From: Podaxis mareebaensis
Taxonomy: Eukaryota > Basidiomycota > Agaricomycetes > Agaricales > Agaricaceae
Assembly (NCBI GenBank): GCA_018524725.1
Contig: JAEUWP010000615.1
Location: 1-64,000 of the forward strand
Direction: 5' to 3'
DNA length: 64,000 nucleotides
Below the pieces are notes generated by a model. That model made no database searches. It was not told where the DNA came from and worked only from the letters and a program-made list of their open reading frames with translations. Positions 3,723 to 17,209 of this stretch are shown here, one piece after another; the stretch's first letter is position 1; every line of letters begins with the position of its first letter. Made by a program: the position numbers and the translations under genes.

Positions 3723-5720
<1,998 letters not shown>

Positions 5721-7063: not shown

Positions 7064-9670
7064 ATGTCCCTCCCAGGCCCCGAACCTTCAGATTTCCAAA
7101 ACTCGGATTTTGCTCCGCAATCACCACAATCGCCCCCCAAAGACAGCCTATTGTTGGGGTTATCAGAATCAACCAAGAGCAGCCCCGCGTGGTCTTTCAA
7201 GGAGTTGGGAAAATCTATGAAGAATCACTTCAGCCCAAAGGCCCAACCAAGGAAGCTATCAGCTTTATTCAATGAAAACGAAAACGTGCTACCAGATGAA
7301 GATGGGGATGGTGTGAGGTTCGCCTCAATCTGACCCAGAAGGACTAGTGCGCGCGTCTCATGGCATAATTCACGCTGTCCAGCTCATCACCAGCGTCTAT
7401 ATTGCCTTCCTTGAGGCAGGCAGACATGATTACCCAGAGCCCGAGGCCTCATCCGATAGTTTTGAGTGGACCTCCCTCCGTGACTTCCGATGCCGATTCG
7501 GCAGATTTCTCTCTCACTGGGAGACATGCTTCGGGTAGCAGGTCAAGCCATATGTTCAACAAAGTCCAGTCGACACGAGCTGTGCGTGGTATCCTTTTAC
7601 TAATAGAGCTGGCATCTCAATCCATTTATAGTTCGTCCTTGACACTGTCAAGAAAATAGCGAAAGGGGCGCTTGTTACGACGCATGGTGTCCTACAACTC
7701 CTAGATGGAGTTCTCCCATACGGGCTTGATGGCGTCACGAGGCTGTTGCTGAACATATGGGAAGCAGTTGAGAAAGTCAAAGTGAGTTTTACAGATTTGT
7801 CATTAGCGCATTGACCAACTGGTGGTAGACCAATAAAGAAGAATGTTTAACACTTGCTCGTCGTTGCGCTACGATTCTCAATGCACTATACGAGGACATG
7901 GAGCGTGAACTTACTCCTGCAGCAAGAGATCAGTTACAAATCCCGCGCGACCGTTTAGATTAGTGGGTACTCGCCCTAAGTACTTATCATAATCATACTT
8001 ACTATATTTGTGCAGTGCGTTCACCAAAGTTTTTGACGTCGCTCGAAAGCTTTCAGAGTATGCCTGGCACGAACGTTTGGGGCACAATGAGGAAATCCTC
8101 AGCGAAATTGACGCTTGCCACCAGGCCCTGGATGACTGCTTGCATAACTTCTCGGTAGGTTGTCCGCAGTCACTTGTTTTGGTGTTCCTGAGTGCATTCA
8201 ACACGATTTAACAGAGAGCTATACTCCTTTGTATATACAATTATGTCCATGAAATGCGGACTCCAAGTCCATCAACGAAACCACTCCCACGAGACGCACA
8301 AGAGGAGGCCGACATGAGCAGCTCGCTTAATAGCCTGCTGAGTCCAGAAGGCATTAAAAGGCATTCATCTAGCCTCAACTCTTCGACCGGTGTTCAAAGC
8401 TGGTCTGCGGAAGACTTGCGTGAGGTGATTCTTCGACTTCAGGCAGAACAGAATCGTAGAGATAGGGAGAGAGATGTCCAAGAATTAAAGCGCCGCGCCA
8501 GGAAGGCCTCAAGGAGCAAATCAATGTCGGTGGCAGAATCCGAGCTTTCGCATCGTTCACATCCTAAGGCTGAATCTTATTCGAAGGAAGTATCAGTGCC
8601 TTTGTGAGTTACCTCTGTGTTTCCCAAAATAGCCAAGCGGTGACACATTTTGTTGTAGTTCGGATATCCTCCTCATGCATGTCGTTGGCCATGGCCCTGT
8701 TTCACGAGTATACAAGGCTGTATGGAAGGGAGAGGTAGTCGCTGTCAAGATTTATGCTGGAATAGGCCCCACTGGAGCACAACCCGCAAGCAAATCCCAG
8801 GATTTTATAAAGAACGAGATCGAGATTTGGCGGAAACTCGAGCATCCTAACGTTCTGAGGTTTAGGAATATGGGAGTGGCTCCGGAAACCACAGAGGGTA
8901 CGAGGGCGGAGTTTGTGATCAGCCCTTTCCTACCTCATGGTAGTGTTTCCTCGTATCTAAGGCAGATGCGATGGAACTATCATGGAATACCGGGCAGACC
9001 AGAGAGGCTAGACGAGCGGAGGATGTTCTTTGATGTTGCAAAGGGTATGGAATACCTTCATTCTCAACGGATCCTGCATGGTAACCTCAAGGTACGATCC
9101 CATGTTCAATGAATAGTAGGATGAAAGCTGACTTCAGCAGGCATCGAACGTGTTGATAGACAGCCATTTAAATTGCCTGATTTCGGATTTCAAGTACAGC
9201 GAAGATCTTAAGAATCAACGAAAGGACAGTGGAAGTGTGTACTGTATGTCACCACGATCCCTTAGTGATAGCAATTGGCCTTGGGCTGAACTTTTCATAG
9301 ATGGTATTCGTTGGCAGGCTCCTGAAGTACTGAGGGACAGGTCCACATTGAGGGAATCGGTTGATATATATGCGTATGCTGTGTTTTGCACGGAAGTTAT
9401 CAATTCTGGGGAGATTCCATGGCCCTACTGGAGTGACGAGGAGATCCGTCGTGGTATTTTGGGTGAGTTTGATATCACACGATTGGCTGAGTCATTGATT
9501 GAACGTGTGCAACAGAGTACAATTTGCGGCCCGATTTCTCTCAGGAAAATGCATCGAAGTTGGGAATTCTTCCGATTATTGAAGACTGTTGGCATTCATC
9601 GCCTGACCTACGTCCACGCTTTAGGAGGATTGTGAAAACTCTCAAGAAAATATATAGTGATATCAACTGA
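7064..9670 (+). CDS. MLKL-like protein: N-terminal helical bundle plus C-terminal pseudokinase (copy 1)
   Basis: Ten exons (7064-7317, 7383-7581, 7632-7781, 7829-7962, 8016-8154, 8215-8603, 8659-9091, 9141-9243, 9301-9462, 9516-9670) give an unbroken 705-residue protein. Residues 1-150 are Ser/Pro-rich. Residues about 152-300 are helical; the stretch EAVEKVKTNKEECLTLARRC is of the sort found in fungal MLKL-N-terminal/HeLo-like four-helix bundles. Residues 300-420 are a charged linker with a likely coiled coil (EDLREVILRLQAEQNRR). Residues 422-705 are a kinase fold: VAVK Lys452, alpha-C Glu475 or 477, LEHPNVL, APE-type WQAPEVL. The catalytic loop reads HGNLKASN (no Asp), the metal motif DFK instead of DFG (582-584), and the Gly loop is GHGPVS, so phosphotransfer is unlikely. 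Mammalian MLKL is likewise a helical bundle with a dead kinase that switches membrane disruption. Function here is inferred; the architecture is seen. Confidence 0.88.
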
Positions 9671-10066
9671 CAGCCTGGTTGTAAATACGTTGAGTGTTGA
9701 TCCTTTGGCTAGCTACTTGCCATTACCTTGTCACGCCAGCTCGTAATAGTGCTTAGGTTAATATTTTATCTCTTCCTAGCCTATAGCGCTGCTGCCGTCG
9801 GACCGGTGTGTTGATTAATGAATGGAAGATGAGTGGAGTAGAGTGGAGAGTAGAGGGCGTCTGGATAGTGGTGGAGAGTGTGGCACATTTATTATAAGGG
9901 TAGCTGTCGTCAGGTCTCCGTGGAAGTCGCCACACCAAGAGGCATTCCCAAGCCATTAAGAGCGTTAACAAGAGATCATGGGGCTCCCTTACGTTCACAG
10001 AAAGACTCATATAACCGGTCCAAGAGAACCCTTGATACCATCTTCCCCTTTGCTCTCCATTTTGCG
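9671..10066. other. Spacer between tandem pseudokinase genes
   Basis: 396 bases holding the end of copy 1 and the promoter of copy 2. No other feature seen. Confidence 0.6.
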
Positions 10067-12675
10067 ATGTCGCTTCACGACCAAGAATCGCTAGAGGCAC
10101 CCTCCTCGGGCGCCATGTCACAATCATCGCAGTCACTCCCCAACGATAGCCTACTGTTGCAGGTTCCGAGCGCTCTCAAAAGCGGCCCGGTACGGAGTCT
10201 CAAGGGGCTCTCAAAATCGGTGATGGGTCGCTTCAATCAGAAAGTCAACTTTAAGGAAAGCGAAAACGAAAACAATGATCTGCCACCTTTGAGCGGAGAT
10301 GAGGAAGATCCGAGGTGTGTTTTAATCCAACTCCAACGTTCAAAGTACACTCTACCCTTGCTTTAGTTTATCCTCAGAGTCTTCGCTGTTGTCTTCCTTA
10401 AGGCAGGTTGACGAGATTACCGAAAGTGTGGAGTCTCCACAGGTGTATTCAAAGAGACCTTCTACGATTCGGGATTCTGCATCGGCTGTGTCCATTAGTA
10501 GTGTCCCGGACACATCCAAACATAGAATTAAAAAAGTCGAATCAACACGAACTGTACGTGGTGAGATTTTCGCAATGAGACAGATGATTTAATCTATTTG
10601 TAGTGTGTCCTTGATACTGTCAGAAAAATATCAAAAGGAGCTTTCGATGTCACACATAATGCCCTCCGGATACTGGACGGAGTTCTCCCGTATGGGCTTG
10701 ACGGCATCACAAGGCTTTTGCTGAACATATGGGAGACAGTCGAAAAAGTCAAAGTGAGTTGCCTACGAAGTTGTTGGAGTTTGGTGCACCTACTAGCCGG
10801 ACGATAGACCAACCAAGAAGAGTGCCTAACGCTTGTTCGTCGCTGCGCGATGATTCTGAATGCACTTTACGAGGACATGGAACGTGAACTAAGTGCTGCA
10901 ACAAAGAAGCAGATACAGATTCCATGTGAACGATTAGACCAGTGAGCATTCTTCTGTCATGCCCAGGTAAAATCATATTGACTACAGTCGTTCAGCGCAT
11001 TCACTAGAATCCTGGATGTCGTGCGGAAACTCCAACAGCATAATTTGTTCGAACGCTGGAGGCTCAGCGAGGAAATCCTCAGTGAAATAGACGATTGTCA
11101 TAAAGCTCTGGATGACTGTTTCTCTACATTCTCGGTAAGTCCTCTGTATGTGCATCCTCTTGGCATTTCAAGACGCACGAACAACGCGACATAACAGACA
11201 TCTATACTTCTTTGCATACTCAATTCTATTTGGGCAATGCGCACACCTAGTACATCCACGATACCACTCCCACTTGGTGTACACCAAGATCCTAGCATGG
11301 GAAACTCGCCTAGCGGCACGCCGAGTCCAACTTTAAGGACGAGAAGCCATTCACATAGCCTCGATTCGTTTGATGTTCAAGACATGTCTCCGGAGGACTT
11401 ACGTGACGCAATTTTCCGACTTCAAGCGGAGCAGAATCGCCGAGACAGGGAGAAAGATATCAAAGAATTAAAATGTCGTACCAGAAAGATGCCAAAAAGC
11501 AAGTCACTGCCAGTCGTGAAAACCTCGTCCTTACACGGCTCATACCATGAGGCTGAAACGTATCCGAAAGAAGTCGAAGTACCCTTGTGAGTTGCCTCCC
11601 AGTTTCAATTTAGTCAACGGATGTCACATTTTAAAATAGCTCAGATATCCTCCTCATACATGTTGTTGGGTATGGGCCCATTTCGTCGGTATACAAGGCT
11701 GTGTGGAATAGGGAGGTAGTCGCTGTCAAGATATATGTTCGTGTCGGTCCAAGCGGTCCTAAAACTGCGGGCAAAGTCAGGGGATTTGTAAAGAACGAGA
11801 TCGAGATTTGGAAGAAGCTTGAACATCCCAACGTCCTGGAGTTCAAGAATAGGGGAACAGCTTCAGGAGCCACCGAGGGTACGAGGGTGGAATTTGTGAT
11901 CAGTCCTTTCCTACCTCACGGTAACATCTCGTCGTATCTGAGGCAGATGCAATGGAACTACTACGGAATACCGGGCCGATCAGAGAGGCTAGACGAGCGG
12001 AGAGTTTTCTTTGATGTCGCAAAGGGCATGGAATATCTTCACTCTCAACAGATTCTGCATGGTAACCTCAAGGTACGATCTTACATTCGATGAAAAGCAG
12101 GGTGAGTGCTGACTTCGGCAGGCGTCAAACGTGTTGGTAGACGGCCATTTAAATTGCCTGATTTCGGATTTCAAGTACAGTGAGGATCTCAGAAAGCCCC
12201 AACGAAACGACAGTGGAGATATATATTGCACGTTTACATATTTGCCCTATGATCTAAACTAATCTCAGCTGAAAATTCTTTGACAGACGGCGTTCGATGG
12301 CAAGCTCCTGAAGTGTTGAGGGGAAAGTCCACGTTGAGAGAATCGGTTGATATATACGCGTATGCCATCTTTTGCACGGAGGTCCTTAACTCTGGGGAAA
12401 TTCCATGGGCTTGCTGGAGCGACGAAGACATCCGTCGTGGTGTTCTGGGTGAGTCGCATATTGTTACATTTGGGTTATTTGTTCGAAGTTCTCCAATAGA
12501 GGGCAATTTACGTCCCGACTTCACTCGAGATCATGCGTCGAAATTGGGCGTTCTTCCAACCATCGAGGCCTGCTGGAGCTCCTCACCAGATCTGCGCCCA
12601 CGCTTCAGGAGAGTTGTGAAGATACTCAAGAATATACTAGCGGCACCAATTAATGGACCAGCAGTTGAATGTTGA
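10067..12675 (+). CDS. MLKL-like protein: N-terminal helical bundle plus C-terminal pseudokinase (copy 2)
   Basis: Tandem paralogue of the gene just upstream. Ten exons (10067-10314, 10367-10553, 10604-10753, 10808-10941, 10996-11134, 11198-11586, 11640-12072, 12122-12227, 12287-12448, 12500-12675) encode 707 residues; six of the ten exons have exactly the same length as in copy 1. Helical bundle about residues 146-290 (LLLNIWETVEKVK, NQEECLTLVRRC), coiled linker, then a pseudokinase with VAVK Lys446, HGNLKASN for HRD..N and DFK (576-578) for DFG. The Gly loop is GYGPIS. The substitutions are shared with copy 1, so loss of catalysis predates the duplication. The intron after exon 8 begins gcacgt where copy 1 has gtatgt: a GC..AG intron, or an inefficient splice site. 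If it is kept, translation stops within it and the C-lobe is lost. The N-terminal 145 residues are the most divergent part. Confidence 0.88.
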
Positions 12676-13578
12676 ACAATAAGCGGTAGGCGTTCATCCG
12701 GATTGCTTATCACCGTCATGTTTGTCGAAGCAGCTTGTCAAGGACACGTAGTGGGGCTGGGGGAGCAAGCGAATGAGCTACAGATCATGTATATCGGCGT
12801 CTCGTGCTTAGTCTGCCCTTACCCGAAATTATAGAAGGTTTTCCTGGGCGGATATGGGCAACATATACCTATCAATGCCTGGCCGGGATTTAGCCAGGGC
12901 AGTGTGATACCTACCGCGGCGTTCAACGTTGTCTTGGAGATTCCTTTTCTGGAAGGATGCCAAACCCTTTCACACGTTTTGATTCAAAACTGTCACTATC
13001 CTCCCGCTTCCTCATGAACGGTTGCAATTACTGTGCATTCGACCCATGCAAGACCTCTGCTCAAATTATTTGTTGACCCACCTCAGGGGGCGATTTCTCG
13101 AGCCATGGACTGAGGGCCACCCCGGTTTCCCTTGGTTTTCCTTTGATAGACTTGCGACACAGCGATAGAGCCTGGAGACTGACATGGACAGTTGGTAACA
13201 AGGTCTTGAATTGTAGCTATGAGACGATGAATGCCAGTATGTATTATGATTCCACATGTTCTAACTTAACACCACATTGGCTGATTTCCTTCGTCTAGCA
13301 CTCGAGCACCTCTCATAGCAACCTCCATCGTTGGCTTGCATACACTGTCGTAACATACTGGGACCAGCGAGATGTTGTTGGAAGCCCATTGTCCATCAAT
13401 TCTTTCTCCCCATTGGTCGTCAATAATACAATGTTGAAGTATATATGTCTTCTTCCAAGCAAAACACCCTCTCCCTCTCACCCTTGCCGCCCGGCATCTT
13501 TTTCCGGCCTCTCTTTCGGTTTCATTCTTTGCCCTGGTTGGCCTCATTCTGTTTCTGTTTCGCTTTTAATTTCAAGCC
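12676..13578. other. Intergenic region
   Basis: About 900 bases between the second pseudokinase and a secreted-protein gene. I see only short open frames and no repeat. A TATATA run at about 13440 may belong to the downstream promoter. Confidence 0.5.
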
Positions 13579-15638
13579 ATGTTACACTTTTCCATTGCTG
13601 TTGGCTTCTCTTTCCTTATTACTTCTGCGCGCGCGTTGAATGACTGGTCTGTCCCTTGTTTCGGGGGCGAATGTTCTTATGATTTGCCTGTCACCTCCCA
13701 GTCGTCCGGCTCAGTTAAAATCGTAAGTCACCTTCCTCGACTTCATTTCACGAGTTTTAACCTGGGCGTTGCAAAGTGGGGCTCTCCGGATGCGATTACG
13801 GACATCACCAAGGCAGCTGGCTGGGTCATCTTGGGATGCGATGCGAACGCTATGACTCAAGATATTCGACTTGTTTGTTCCAGTGATGATACGGCTACCT
13901 CTGGGTGTGGTCATCTTTATCAAAACGGCGGGGCTGTCGGCAAGATCGTTCGCCTTCCTGAGAATGTGTGTTCCACTTTGTTCTTTCGCGTCGTCCCACG
14001 ACAACTGACGTTATTATGCAGTGCGGAGCGATGCCGTTTGCACGCGTTGCGAAAGCCTGGGTGGACGAAGACCAATCGATTCCCAGCAATGTTGCGAGAT
14101 CGCTCGTTCGAAGAGCTGGAACTCCCAAAGTCCGGGCTCTTTCCCTTGACACGAACTTTGCTGCCGTTGATCCTAAAACGTAGGCGCAGGACTAATCATA
14201 GGCTGAAGGACAATAAGCCCATCATTTGATAGGACAGGCAATGTCAGTATCGCTATTGAAGGTTCCAACGTCCCTGGACAAAATGGCAACCTTACTGTCA
14301 CTCCACCCGCTTCTCGTCGAAGAAGCCGTCTCGTTCGACGTGGGCTGATTTCATTCATTGAGGATTCTTTCAATAGTACGCGTCAGCCTCCTGCCTTGCA
14401 GTACCAGTTGTCTCAAATTCCGTTCCCAGAATTCAACTCCTTTGACGAAAATCTTACGAAAGATCTAGCTCCCATTGACATTGACAAGTCGTTTCCTATT
14501 TTCAGCGATTCCATCTCGTGCCCTGCCTCAGGAGCAATCCCTGCAGTGACCGCTTCGGTCAATATCGATGCCAGCACGAAGGCTCACTCACTTATTACCC
14601 TTGGAATTGCTGCAGCTGGAACCATTGTACCTCCTAAACTAACGGATTTCGGCGTTTATGTCAATATGGACGCTGACTTGACCGGGAGTGTTACACTTAA
14701 GGGGGCCGCAACGGTATGATTCTGCGTAATAAATCAAATTCAGTCGCTCATTCCATATTAGGGCGTCGTCGATTCCGGTCGGATTGGCTTATTCGAGGTT
14801 GGCATACCTGGACTCGACTTCCCAGGGTGAGATCACCTTAAACACCTCGTTCATCGAGACGCCCGCTGAAATACTTCAGTGTCTTATCCGTTGGTCCCAG
14901 CTTCAAGATCGAGGGCCAAACCAAAGCAACACTGGATATTGATGTCGATATGACGGTTGACCTCTCCTACTCGGTTAAGGGTGCCAAGCTATTCTTCCCA
15001 TCCTCTCAGAACCACGAGTCAGGTGGCAATTTTGTACCAGGAAATGCACGTGCGTCCATATCCACCTCTCATGGAGTTAGTGTTTTGTCTCTAATCTTGC
15101 GGAATATGTGTGTAGCTCTCCAGCTTTCGGTATCACCATCTGTCGCTTCTAAGGGGGTTGTCGAAGCCCACCTCGTGCCCAAACTTGACCTTGGCATCTC
15201 CGCTCTGGGGGGTGCCGAAGCGACGGTGTTCGTTGAGCTAGATAGCAGTGCCTCCGCTACCCTGACGCTCAATGGAAAAGCAAATGTTGGGGCCACCCTC
15301 GAGGACAACCAGGCCTCTACTTCGGCCGGCGCCAGTGTTGATGGATGCGCCAGTGTCGATGGTGGCATCGATGTCAACGCCGGTGCTGATGCAGCATTTT
15401 TCGATCTCTTCGACGCTTCTACCTCGGTCCCCCTCTTCACCAAGAAATACCAGATCTTCCAAGTACGTGAAAGTCTCCTCCAGGTCGATGGTTGTTAACT
15501 TCCTATCTGTAGAAGTGTTTCGGGGCTGCTACGACGAAGAGGGAAATTAGATCGAGTTTGCGTCATACTCACTTGAGCGCCCGCGCTCTGACTTGCCCCA
15601 CTTTTGCTCAGAAGGCGTTAGTTTCTCTTGCTGCTTGA
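13579..15638 (+). CDS. Large secreted protein of unknown function (family shared with 39161-42011)
   Basis: ATG 13579 opens a signal peptide (MLHFSIAVGFSFLITSARA) followed by a conserved Cys pair in NDWSVPCFGGECSYDLP. Introns at about 13723, 13965, 14180, 14715, 14829, 15049 and 15463 are all needed to keep frame. The middle has WGSPDAITDITKAAGW and a Cys-rich piece; the second half is beta-rich and repetitive: VDMTVDLSY, VEAHLVPKLDLGISALGG, VFVELDSSASATLTL, then VNAGADAAFFDLFD near the end and a short basic tail (KCFGAATTKRE), stop at 15636-15638. About 560 residues. It resembles big uncharacterised secreted proteins of fungi that I cannot name with certainty. Its closest kin are in this window: a truncated copy 450 bases downstream and a longer intact gene on the other strand. 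No enzyme motif or membrane anchor visible. Confidence 0.82.
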
Positions 15639-16089
15639 AGACCGGGGCCAGTAACATGATCTTATATTATTTTAATTGTTGGGTATCCCAGGACTGGGAT
15701 ATGCAAGACCGAGGAAACCTTCATGTGTCCAAGTTTATAGCGTTGGCTGCCAGATAAGTGCATTGGCTTTTATCTAATAAGATAGTCCGTCTTTTTTTCT
15801 TGAATCTATGAAGGTTAACTGAAGGCTTTGTTGGATACCGTCGGTTGGCGCATTCAATACCCAATGGTTCAATTTCCAATCCGGCATTTTTCGTTCCTCC
15901 CTGACTTTTTTCTCCCACTCCATCCAAAATGCAACCACTCTACTCAAGTTGTTATAGCTTTACCACCATTGGTCTAAGCCCAAGCAAAGGCAACGTCGGG
16001 ATATCCACGTCAACCTCATTGTCCATGTCGCCTATACTTTGATAGATGCCAGGCCGCCAAAGTTGAGCCTCTACTCCCGAGAGCAAGGC
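15639..16089. other. Spacer with possible eroded coding sequence
   Basis: About 450 bases between the secreted-protein gene and its broken copy. The last 100 bases may be part of the broken copy, but the frame is too damaged to follow. Confidence 0.35.
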
Positions 16090-16748
16090 GGCTTCGGACA
16101 TCAACGCCCAAATGTCCGTGGACCTCTCCTATTCCGCACGGTCCGCCACGATATATTGGCCCCCATCTCGAGGTCACCCTCCTACGGGGGTTTTCACTCC
16201 TACTTCCAGTGGTACGTCTAACCCTACTGTGATAAGCTGTATGAGTTGACCACAAAAGCAGCAGGCACCAAGCTCTTCATTCCGCCTCTATATAATGCAC
16301 GAGCTTCCATTGAGGCTCATCTGATCCCAAGGCTTGAATTCGAGATTTCAGCATTCAAAAACCGCGTGAAAAGTACTATATACATCCTTTTAGATGCCAG
16401 CGCTACAACCGCGTTAACGCTCTCATCGGGTACTACTCAGTCTCCCAGCAGATGCGTTGATGTTGTAGCTGGCCTGGACGTTCATGGCGGTGCCGATGTC
16501 GACTTTTACGGGTTATTCGACAAGTCTACGTTTTTGCCAATTTACCAGAGAAGCTACGATATCTTTAAGGTATATCGAGTCTCCGCGCATGAACTTGCCT
16601 TACTCACACGCCTTTCCTTAGAAATGTTTCAATCAAGCTTCCGTGCAGAGGGAAAACATAATTCAGGCAAAGCTGGAACCGAGGAGCCGAGGCCTTGTTT
16701 GTCCTTCTGGCAAACCACCGGTTTTGGTCTCAGTTACAGATCTTTGAG
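16090..16748 (+). pseudogene. Truncated copy of the large secreted protein (C-terminal part)
   Basis: From about 16246 the frame gives IEAHLIPRLEFEISAF, then ILLDASATTALTLSSGT, then DVHGGADVDFYGLFDKST, aligning in order with VEAHLVPKLDLGISAL, VELDSSASATLTL and VNAGADAAFFDLFD of the gene upstream. The same intron position follows (donor at about 16570, acceptor at about 16621) and leads to KCFNQA, matching KCFGAA, with a stop at about 16748. Upstream, 16090-16130 still resembles the VDMTVDLSYS segment but with frame breaks. The signal peptide and first half are gone. This is a partial tandem duplicate; expression would need a new promoter. Confidence 0.7.
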
Positions 16749-17209
16749 CAATGTGGCATGAGGTTCGAATATCTTCGTCTTCAAGCCTGGCTGTCTTCGG
16801 AAGTAAGGACCTAGGAGAATGAGGACTACAATTCGTGTATTGTAACGCAGCCACGACATTATCGTAAATATCAATTGTATGGCTAGGTGGCAGACGTACA
16901 TTGCGAAAAATTTTCATAGACGAATAACGCATGAGGACTCTCCAAGATAATGGTGTTGATAGATTCTTTTCTTCCCTGTTTCGTATCTGTAAAAGAGTTT
17001 CTTTCGACTGTCCCGACCTTTATTGGTATGTCTGGCATCAAAGCCCGAACTTGGGTGGTCACGCGGTGTAGTTCAATGGATAAATACGTTCTTAATATAT
17101 TGTTCAAAATCTATATCGTGGTGATATTAGACAAGCCCTTTGCATCACTATAGATACACAACCAATAAATTCGGACATTACCACGTTCAGTCTTTCCTAA
17201 AAGGTGTCA
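16749..17209. other. Intergenic region
   Basis: About 460 bases with no supported gene. A short stretch at 17064-17126 looks faintly like the 5' half of a tRNA but has no matching acceptor stem (see rejected list). Confidence 0.5.

Follow-up and report, generated by a model that had tools for sequence, protein, structure and literature searches.

Two tandem genes, g1 and g2, lie on the forward strand of a 64,000-nucleotide stretch of Podaxis mareebaensis DNA (contig JAEUWP010000615.1, positions 1 to 64,000; this whole stretch is called the window), and both encode a helical bundle joined to a kinase fold that lacks catalytic residues. We favor the interpretation that g1 and g2 form a maintained, catalytically impaired bundle-pseudokinase pair belonging to a mushroom bundle-kinase family and working as a gated bundle, possibly a cell-death switch, an overall reading that we consider somewhat probable.

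An earlier note on this DNA had described two adjacent proteins of 705 and 707 residues. Both genes are present at that span (7064-12675), and the spliced models shorten the proteins slightly: g1 (7064-9670) encodes 694 residues and g2 (10067-12675) encodes 695, each from 10 exons that are all open and each with a Pfam kinase match. Splicing was guided by homology between the two copies. The introns are all GT-AG except for a single GC-AG intron in g2 (12228-12286), where the homologous site in g1 is a GT-AG intron. Over 686 aligned residues the two proteins share 63% identity, rising to 68% for the bundle and 78% for the kinase. Each is built from a tail of ~135 residues, a helical bundle, a helical linker, and the kinase fold. 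The bundle is encoded by exons 3-6 (7632-8244 in g1, residues ~141-291, and 10604-11227 in g2), and the kinase fold by exons 7-10 (8659-9670 and 11640-12675). The charged linker between them, identified from the sequence, lies at 8404-8508 in g1 and 11387-11491 in g2. The N-terminal bundle of the earlier note is supported as a bundle but not in its position, as ~140 residues precede it in g1.

The kinase folds match PF07714 with E = 6.1e-42 for g1 (residues 416-686) and 4.5e-37 for g2, and the proteins end 8 and 16 residues past this match, respectively. In both copies the catalytic Asp is changed to Asn, giving HGN in place of HRD within the sequence HGNLKASN (9077-9085 in g1, 12058-12066 in g2), and the Gly of DFG is changed to Lys, giving DFK (9186-9194 and 12167-12175). 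The ATP-anchoring Lys of VAVK is retained (8738-8749 and 11719-11730), as are the alpha-C Glu, the catalytic-loop Asn, the DFG Asp, and the APE motif. Sequence and alignment thus bear out the HGN and DFK motifs and the retained VAVK Lys and loop Asn that the earlier note had read, with the correction that the decay of DFG is confined to its Gly. From these residues, the kinases of g1 and g2 are predicted to be inactive.

Both folded domains are under purifying selection. Between the two copies, the ratio of nonsynonymous to synonymous change (Ka/Ks, Nei-Gojobori count) is 0.144 in the kinase, 0.157 in the bundle, 0.32 in the linker, and 0.48 in the N-terminal tail, with synonymous divergence (dS) of ~0.9-1.3. 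The low value in the kinase implies that the pseudokinase state is maintained. One close database relative of g1 was recovered, the protein P0001 from Leucocoprinus leucothites (49% identity over 87%), in a search restricted to the 7993 candidates sharing most words; a search with the g1 bundle region gave P0001 as the sole match among 1039 candidates. P0001 also reads DFK, and the catalytic loop is missing from its database model, so that HGN could not be checked there. With Ka/Ks of 0.144 and 0.157 in the two domains and DFK common to P0001, the motif state of g1 and g2 is more than chance.

The architecture of the pair is shared with intact kinases in the same genome. A kinase search of the source genome (37 Mb, 429 contigs) returned 55 matches including those of the window, and we modeled the best two outside it, on contigs C44 and C64, with intron ends chosen by script. 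The resulting genes, c44 and c64, are bundle-linker-kinase genes that keep both HGD and DFG. All four genes (g1, g2, c44, and c64) have six introns in common by alignment column and phase, and another two nearly coincide, a pattern that points to a common origin for the architecture as a whole. The bundles of the window pair are only 23-26% identical to those of c44 and c64. A bundle search of the genome at E ≤ 10 returned g1 and g2 as its sole matches and missed c44 and c64; the copy number is therefore a lower bound.

When the C64 bundle was used as a database query, 64 proteins were obtained, and all those with names are from Agaricomycetes. The majority (57 of 64) are longer than 1000 residues, and one, P0039 from Ephemerocybe angulata, is annotated by its source as 'TKL/TKL-ccin protein kinase'. 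An Agaricomycete expansion of a fungal kinase lineage close to the tyrosine kinases is already described (PMC3937382). Motifs were compared across 69 rows comprising the 64 family proteins together with P0001, g1, g2, c44, and c64. At the HRD site, 62 rows have HGD, one has HSD, three (g1, g2, and P0073) have HGN, and three are unreadable, so that the catalytic Asp is retained in 63 of the 66 rows that can be read. At the DFG site 65 rows can be read, 62 of them as DFG and three (g1, g2, and P0001) as DFK; the remaining four rows are gapped, partial, or show a residue outside the kinase. As HGD is the family norm, only the Asp to Asn and Gly to Lys changes are derived in g1 and g2. The claim of the earlier note that HRD is lost was accordingly rejected as worded, since its Arg to Gly part is not decay, and only the replacement of Asp stands. 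The intact catalytic Asp and DFG characteristic of the family are absent from both window proteins, which carry HGN and DFK.

The same note had proposed that close relatives with intact motifs would count against it, and here the outcome is mixed: the orthologue P0001 keeps DFK, but c44, c64, and most readable family rows keep the catalytic Asp, which makes the motif decay secondary to the architecture. Homology of the window pair to the family is evident from the bundle, where the window-clade and family profiles align with an hhalign probability of 99.7%, and from the six identical introns shared with c44 and c64. In a maximum-likelihood tree of 67 of the 69 rows (P0064 and P0068 omitted for length; midpoint root), g1, g2, and P0001 form one group with 100/100 support, set apart by a branch length of 2.98 changes per column. 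The possibility that this clade is a recent close offshoot of c64 was rejected on the length and support of that branch. In architecture and relationship, g1 and g2 are very probably a divergent branch of the Agaricomycete bundle-kinase family, whose members link an MLKL_N-like bundle to a kinase of TK/TKL type.

Several family members depart from the common pattern. P0073, from Suillus subalutaceus, also has HGN, with Ala replacing the alpha-C Glu, and its model lacks the DFG segment. As the tree puts it on a long terminal branch separate from the window clade, the family may have lost catalysis on more than one occasion, a possible second loss for which P0073 is the one sequence. P0064, from Mycena latifolia, is a protein of 661 residues without a Pfam label in which the bundle and what looks by eye like the family's C-terminal region are not separated by a kinase. 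It may represent the architecture minus its kinase, or an error in the gene model. That C-terminal region is conserved after the kinase (from ~1166 in P0039), has the consensus core LGAVGYLSKPxGxFVTLFNA, and carries no Pfam label in the family rows. Its core string is common without being universal (43 of 64 family rows) and is absent from g1 and g2. By eye, the region is also seen at L038 (~4400-5700) and L039 (~4300-5660).

The likeness of the bundle to MLKL was examined with profiles. MLKL_N was the top Pfam family for all five bundle pieces, with E-values of 0.015 for g1, 2.3e-4 for g2 (21.2 bits), 0.0041 for P0001, 1.9e-5 for c44, and 4.2e-4 for c64; the matches begin at profile positions 6-10, and MLKL_N was listed for none of five reversed control sequences. 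Full-length g2 matched MLKL_N with E = 0.0036. Four alignments were built, A1 with 61 of 65 proteins (without P0053, P0059, P0064, and P0068), A2 with 35 of 65, A3 with 18 bundle rows, and A4 with three. MLKL_N reached E ≤ 0.01 in 25 of the 35 A2 members (best 8.3e-8), and the database's own PF22215 label is attached to 10 of the 64 homologues. An 18-bundle family profile searched against PDB sequences gave 15 hits at E ≤ 10, of which MLKL supplied the first five and seven overall, with weak E-values (0.15-0.27 for the first five). In these alignments the MLKL match begins at the segment that reads NIWEAVEKVK in g1, which implies that a further helix precedes it.

Structure prediction agrees with a helical bundle. 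The AlphaFold2 model of P0001 places helices at residues 143-157, 163-186, 190-218, and 229-266, and across residues 141-260 the predicted local distance difference test (pLDDT) is 80-96 by block, save one block of 64. A low-confidence helix (101-134, pLDDT 52-71) lies ahead of the bundle, there is no separate helix hM, and a helix at 312-347 is the counterpart of the g1 linker. The region for which the earlier note had called for a bundle fold is therefore predicted to form a helical bundle in the orthologue that was folded, P0001, as a stand-in for g1 and g2. In the intact relative P0063, the predicted helices are 22-43 (hG-like), 67-83, 90-113, 123-145, 148-153 (hM-like), and 155-206.

A number of results weigh against the MLKL-like reading. 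The MLKL_N scores of all five bundles are below the curated 27-bit cut-off, and full-length g1 gave no MLKL_N match at E ≤ 1. Against PDB sequences, neither a three-sequence profile of the window clade (5 hits) nor the single g1 bundle (8 hits) returned MLKL. By sequence the kinase does not stand out as MLKL-like either, as no MLKL was present in the best 60 of 2027 rows for the kinase against PDB sequences, and the structure lists for P0063 from Foldseek and VIA-align, which are dominated by the kinase domain, match Src, BTK, and Abl with no MLKL in the best 50 rows of each. The killing helix of MLKL is N-terminal. The window proteins are unlike MLKL in this respect, since a tail and a predicted extra helix come ahead of their bundle. 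One simple RHIM-like pattern was found in none of g1, g2, and P0001. No NLR was seen among 20 window open reading frames (ORFs), an absence that is weak because these were scanned as open frames without intron modeling. Two further searches are neutral: an NCBIfam scan of the bundle gave nothing relevant, and an MLKL_N search of the whole source genome gave no match even for the controls and is hence uninformative. Taken together, the MLKL likeness and domain order proposed by the earlier note gain support from the Pfam ranking, the family profile, and the helical P0001 model, and lose some from the sub-threshold scores and from the searches with full-length g1 and the window profile.

For the death-switch reading of g1 and g2, the pseudokinase would act as a conformational gate that holds the bundle at rest. 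Release might follow when a ligand binds in the retained pocket or when the activation segment is phosphorylated, in which case c44, c64, or another intact paralogue could be the kinase responsible. The freed bundle would then oligomerize and act on membranes in the manner of MLKL and HeLo domains, with regulated cell death or a related membrane response as the outcome. We regard the gated-bundle mechanism as an even call on the present analysis, and lytic cell death as its output is put forward only tentatively.

An alternative that we consider rather unlikely is that g1 and g2 are regulatory pseudokinase partners. The bundle would serve for oligomerization and the pseudokinase would allosterically control, or act as a decoy for, c44 and c64, so that the output is ordinary signaling with no membrane damage. 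The presence in one genome of c44 and c64, with the same domain order, shared introns, and HGD and DFG motifs, is in keeping with such a role, as is the similar constraint on bundle and kinase. The family as a whole, with 64 Agaricomycete members of which 57 exceed 1000 residues and many carry a C-terminal region, is also unlike a dedicated killer. However, the top family match of the bundle, although below the cut-off, is a membrane-acting domain, and the low identity of the window bundles to those of c44 and c64 (23-26%) weakens the case for hetero-oligomers.

A bolder proposal, which we judge distinctly unlikely, is that an MLKL-style executioner evolved independently in mushrooms. The pair of the Agaricaceae branch would have arisen from an ancient, catalytically intact bundle-kinase family and would be held in check by its dead kinase and fired by the intact bundle-kinase paralogues, placing a RIPK3-like activator and an MLKL-like effector in one genome, with a pseudokinase state that arose apart from those of animals and plants.

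It is improbable that g1 and g2 are unusual kinases that are still active, in which HGN and DFK lower phosphotransfer without abolishing it. The VAVK Lys, alpha-C Glu, DFG Asp, and loop Asn are all retained, and ErbB3, with Asn at the position of the HRD Asp, keeps weak activity. Against this, both copies carry changes at two positions that are well conserved across the alignment (63 of 66 and 62 of 65 readable rows), and the Gly to Lys change is also present in P0001. That the genes are decaying duplicates or pseudogenes without function is highly improbable and was rejected on the open exons and low Ka/Ks, as the lost catalytic residues and the long branch of the window clade (2.98 changes per column) are set against ten open exons per copy, a Ka/Ks of 0.14-0.16 for bundle and kinase, and the presence of DFK in the orthologue P0001 as well.

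The surroundings of the pair are mixed in content. Upstream of g1 is an aldehyde dehydrogenase gene on the reverse strand (match at 4829-5362); downstream of g2 are ORFs without a Pfam match and then a membrane transporter, with an oxysterol-binding protein and a FunK1-type kinase farther away. The Pfam scan of the 20 window ORFs identified the aldehyde dehydrogenase, the membrane transporter, and the oxysterol-binding protein (in two ORFs, of which one also has a weak PH match), along with sub-threshold F-box-like and esterase matches. The ORF at 34353-35204 matches Pkinase_fungal (FunK1-type) with E = 1.7e-15. Several long open frames at 13570-16761 appear by eye to be at least one multi-exon gene with similar stretches; three of these frames were scanned and gave no Pfam match.

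If the death-switch reading is correct, the bundle gated by a pseudokinase, familiar above all from animal necroptosis and recently from plants, extends to mushrooms. A single genome would then be seen to hold the bundle-kinase architecture in both intact and catalytically lost form, making it testable whether loss of catalysis yields an executioner and whether intact siblings fire it. A widespread Agaricomycete kinase family would also be tied to the MLKL/HeLo bundle superfamily, which in basidiomycetes is described mainly in NLRs in the relevant passages of PMC9815663.

Compared with known systems, the window proteins share with animal MLKL the order of helical bundle, linking helices, and C-terminal pseudokinase, a bundle whose top Pfam match is MLKL_N (below cut-off), and loss of the catalytic Asp with retention of the ATP Lys. 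They differ in the tail and predicted extra helix ahead of the bundle, in a kinase sequence that does not appear specifically MLKL-like, in having intact relatives in the same genome, and in showing no RHIM-like pattern. They also retain the DFG Asp, whereas MLKL reads GFE at this site. The Agaricomycete bundle-TKL kinases such as P0039 are homologous in the bundle and have the same order, with intron positions and phases shared between c44, c64, and the window pair. These kinases carry HGD and DFG in nearly all readable rows, in contrast to HGN and DFK in g1 and g2, and P0039 continues ~390 residues past the kinase whereas g1 and g2 stop shortly after it and lie on a long separate branch.

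The BaMLKL domains of basidiomycete NLRs, as outlined in the sections concerned of PMC9815663, consist of a four-helix core resembling MLKL_NTD that is preceded by an additional helix, hG; a short perpendicular helix, hM, also belongs to the domain. A helix ahead of a four-helix core is similarly predicted in P0063 and, at low confidence, in P0001. BaMLKL is found at NLR N termini (PMC9815663), whereas the bundle of g1 and g2 is joined to a kinase fold. In plants, PMC10951266 describes wheat Pm13 as an MLKL_NTD with a kinase that has all key residues, and mammalian MLKL and AtMLKLs as pseudokinases. The resemblance lies in the joining of MLKL_NTD, or its plant counterpart, to a kinase fold in both intact and pseudokinase versions, with a link to immunity in plants; the plant proteins belong to another kingdom, and the resistance conferred by Pm13 was shown genetically (PMC10951266).

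A search of the literature on fungal and mushroom MLKL-like pseudokinases, with subscription journals and preprints outside its coverage, found no article devoted to the Agaricomycete bundle-TKL family among the titles listed. A 2016 paper is said to have linked HELL domains to MLKL. Fungal HELL-kinase and HELL-pseudokinase proteins are mentioned in a 2025 review, with no gene named in the passage concerned (PMC12881547). The kind of architecture seen in g1 and g2 is therefore already in print for fungi, and what is less expected is the occurrence of intact and catalytically lost versions within one genome.

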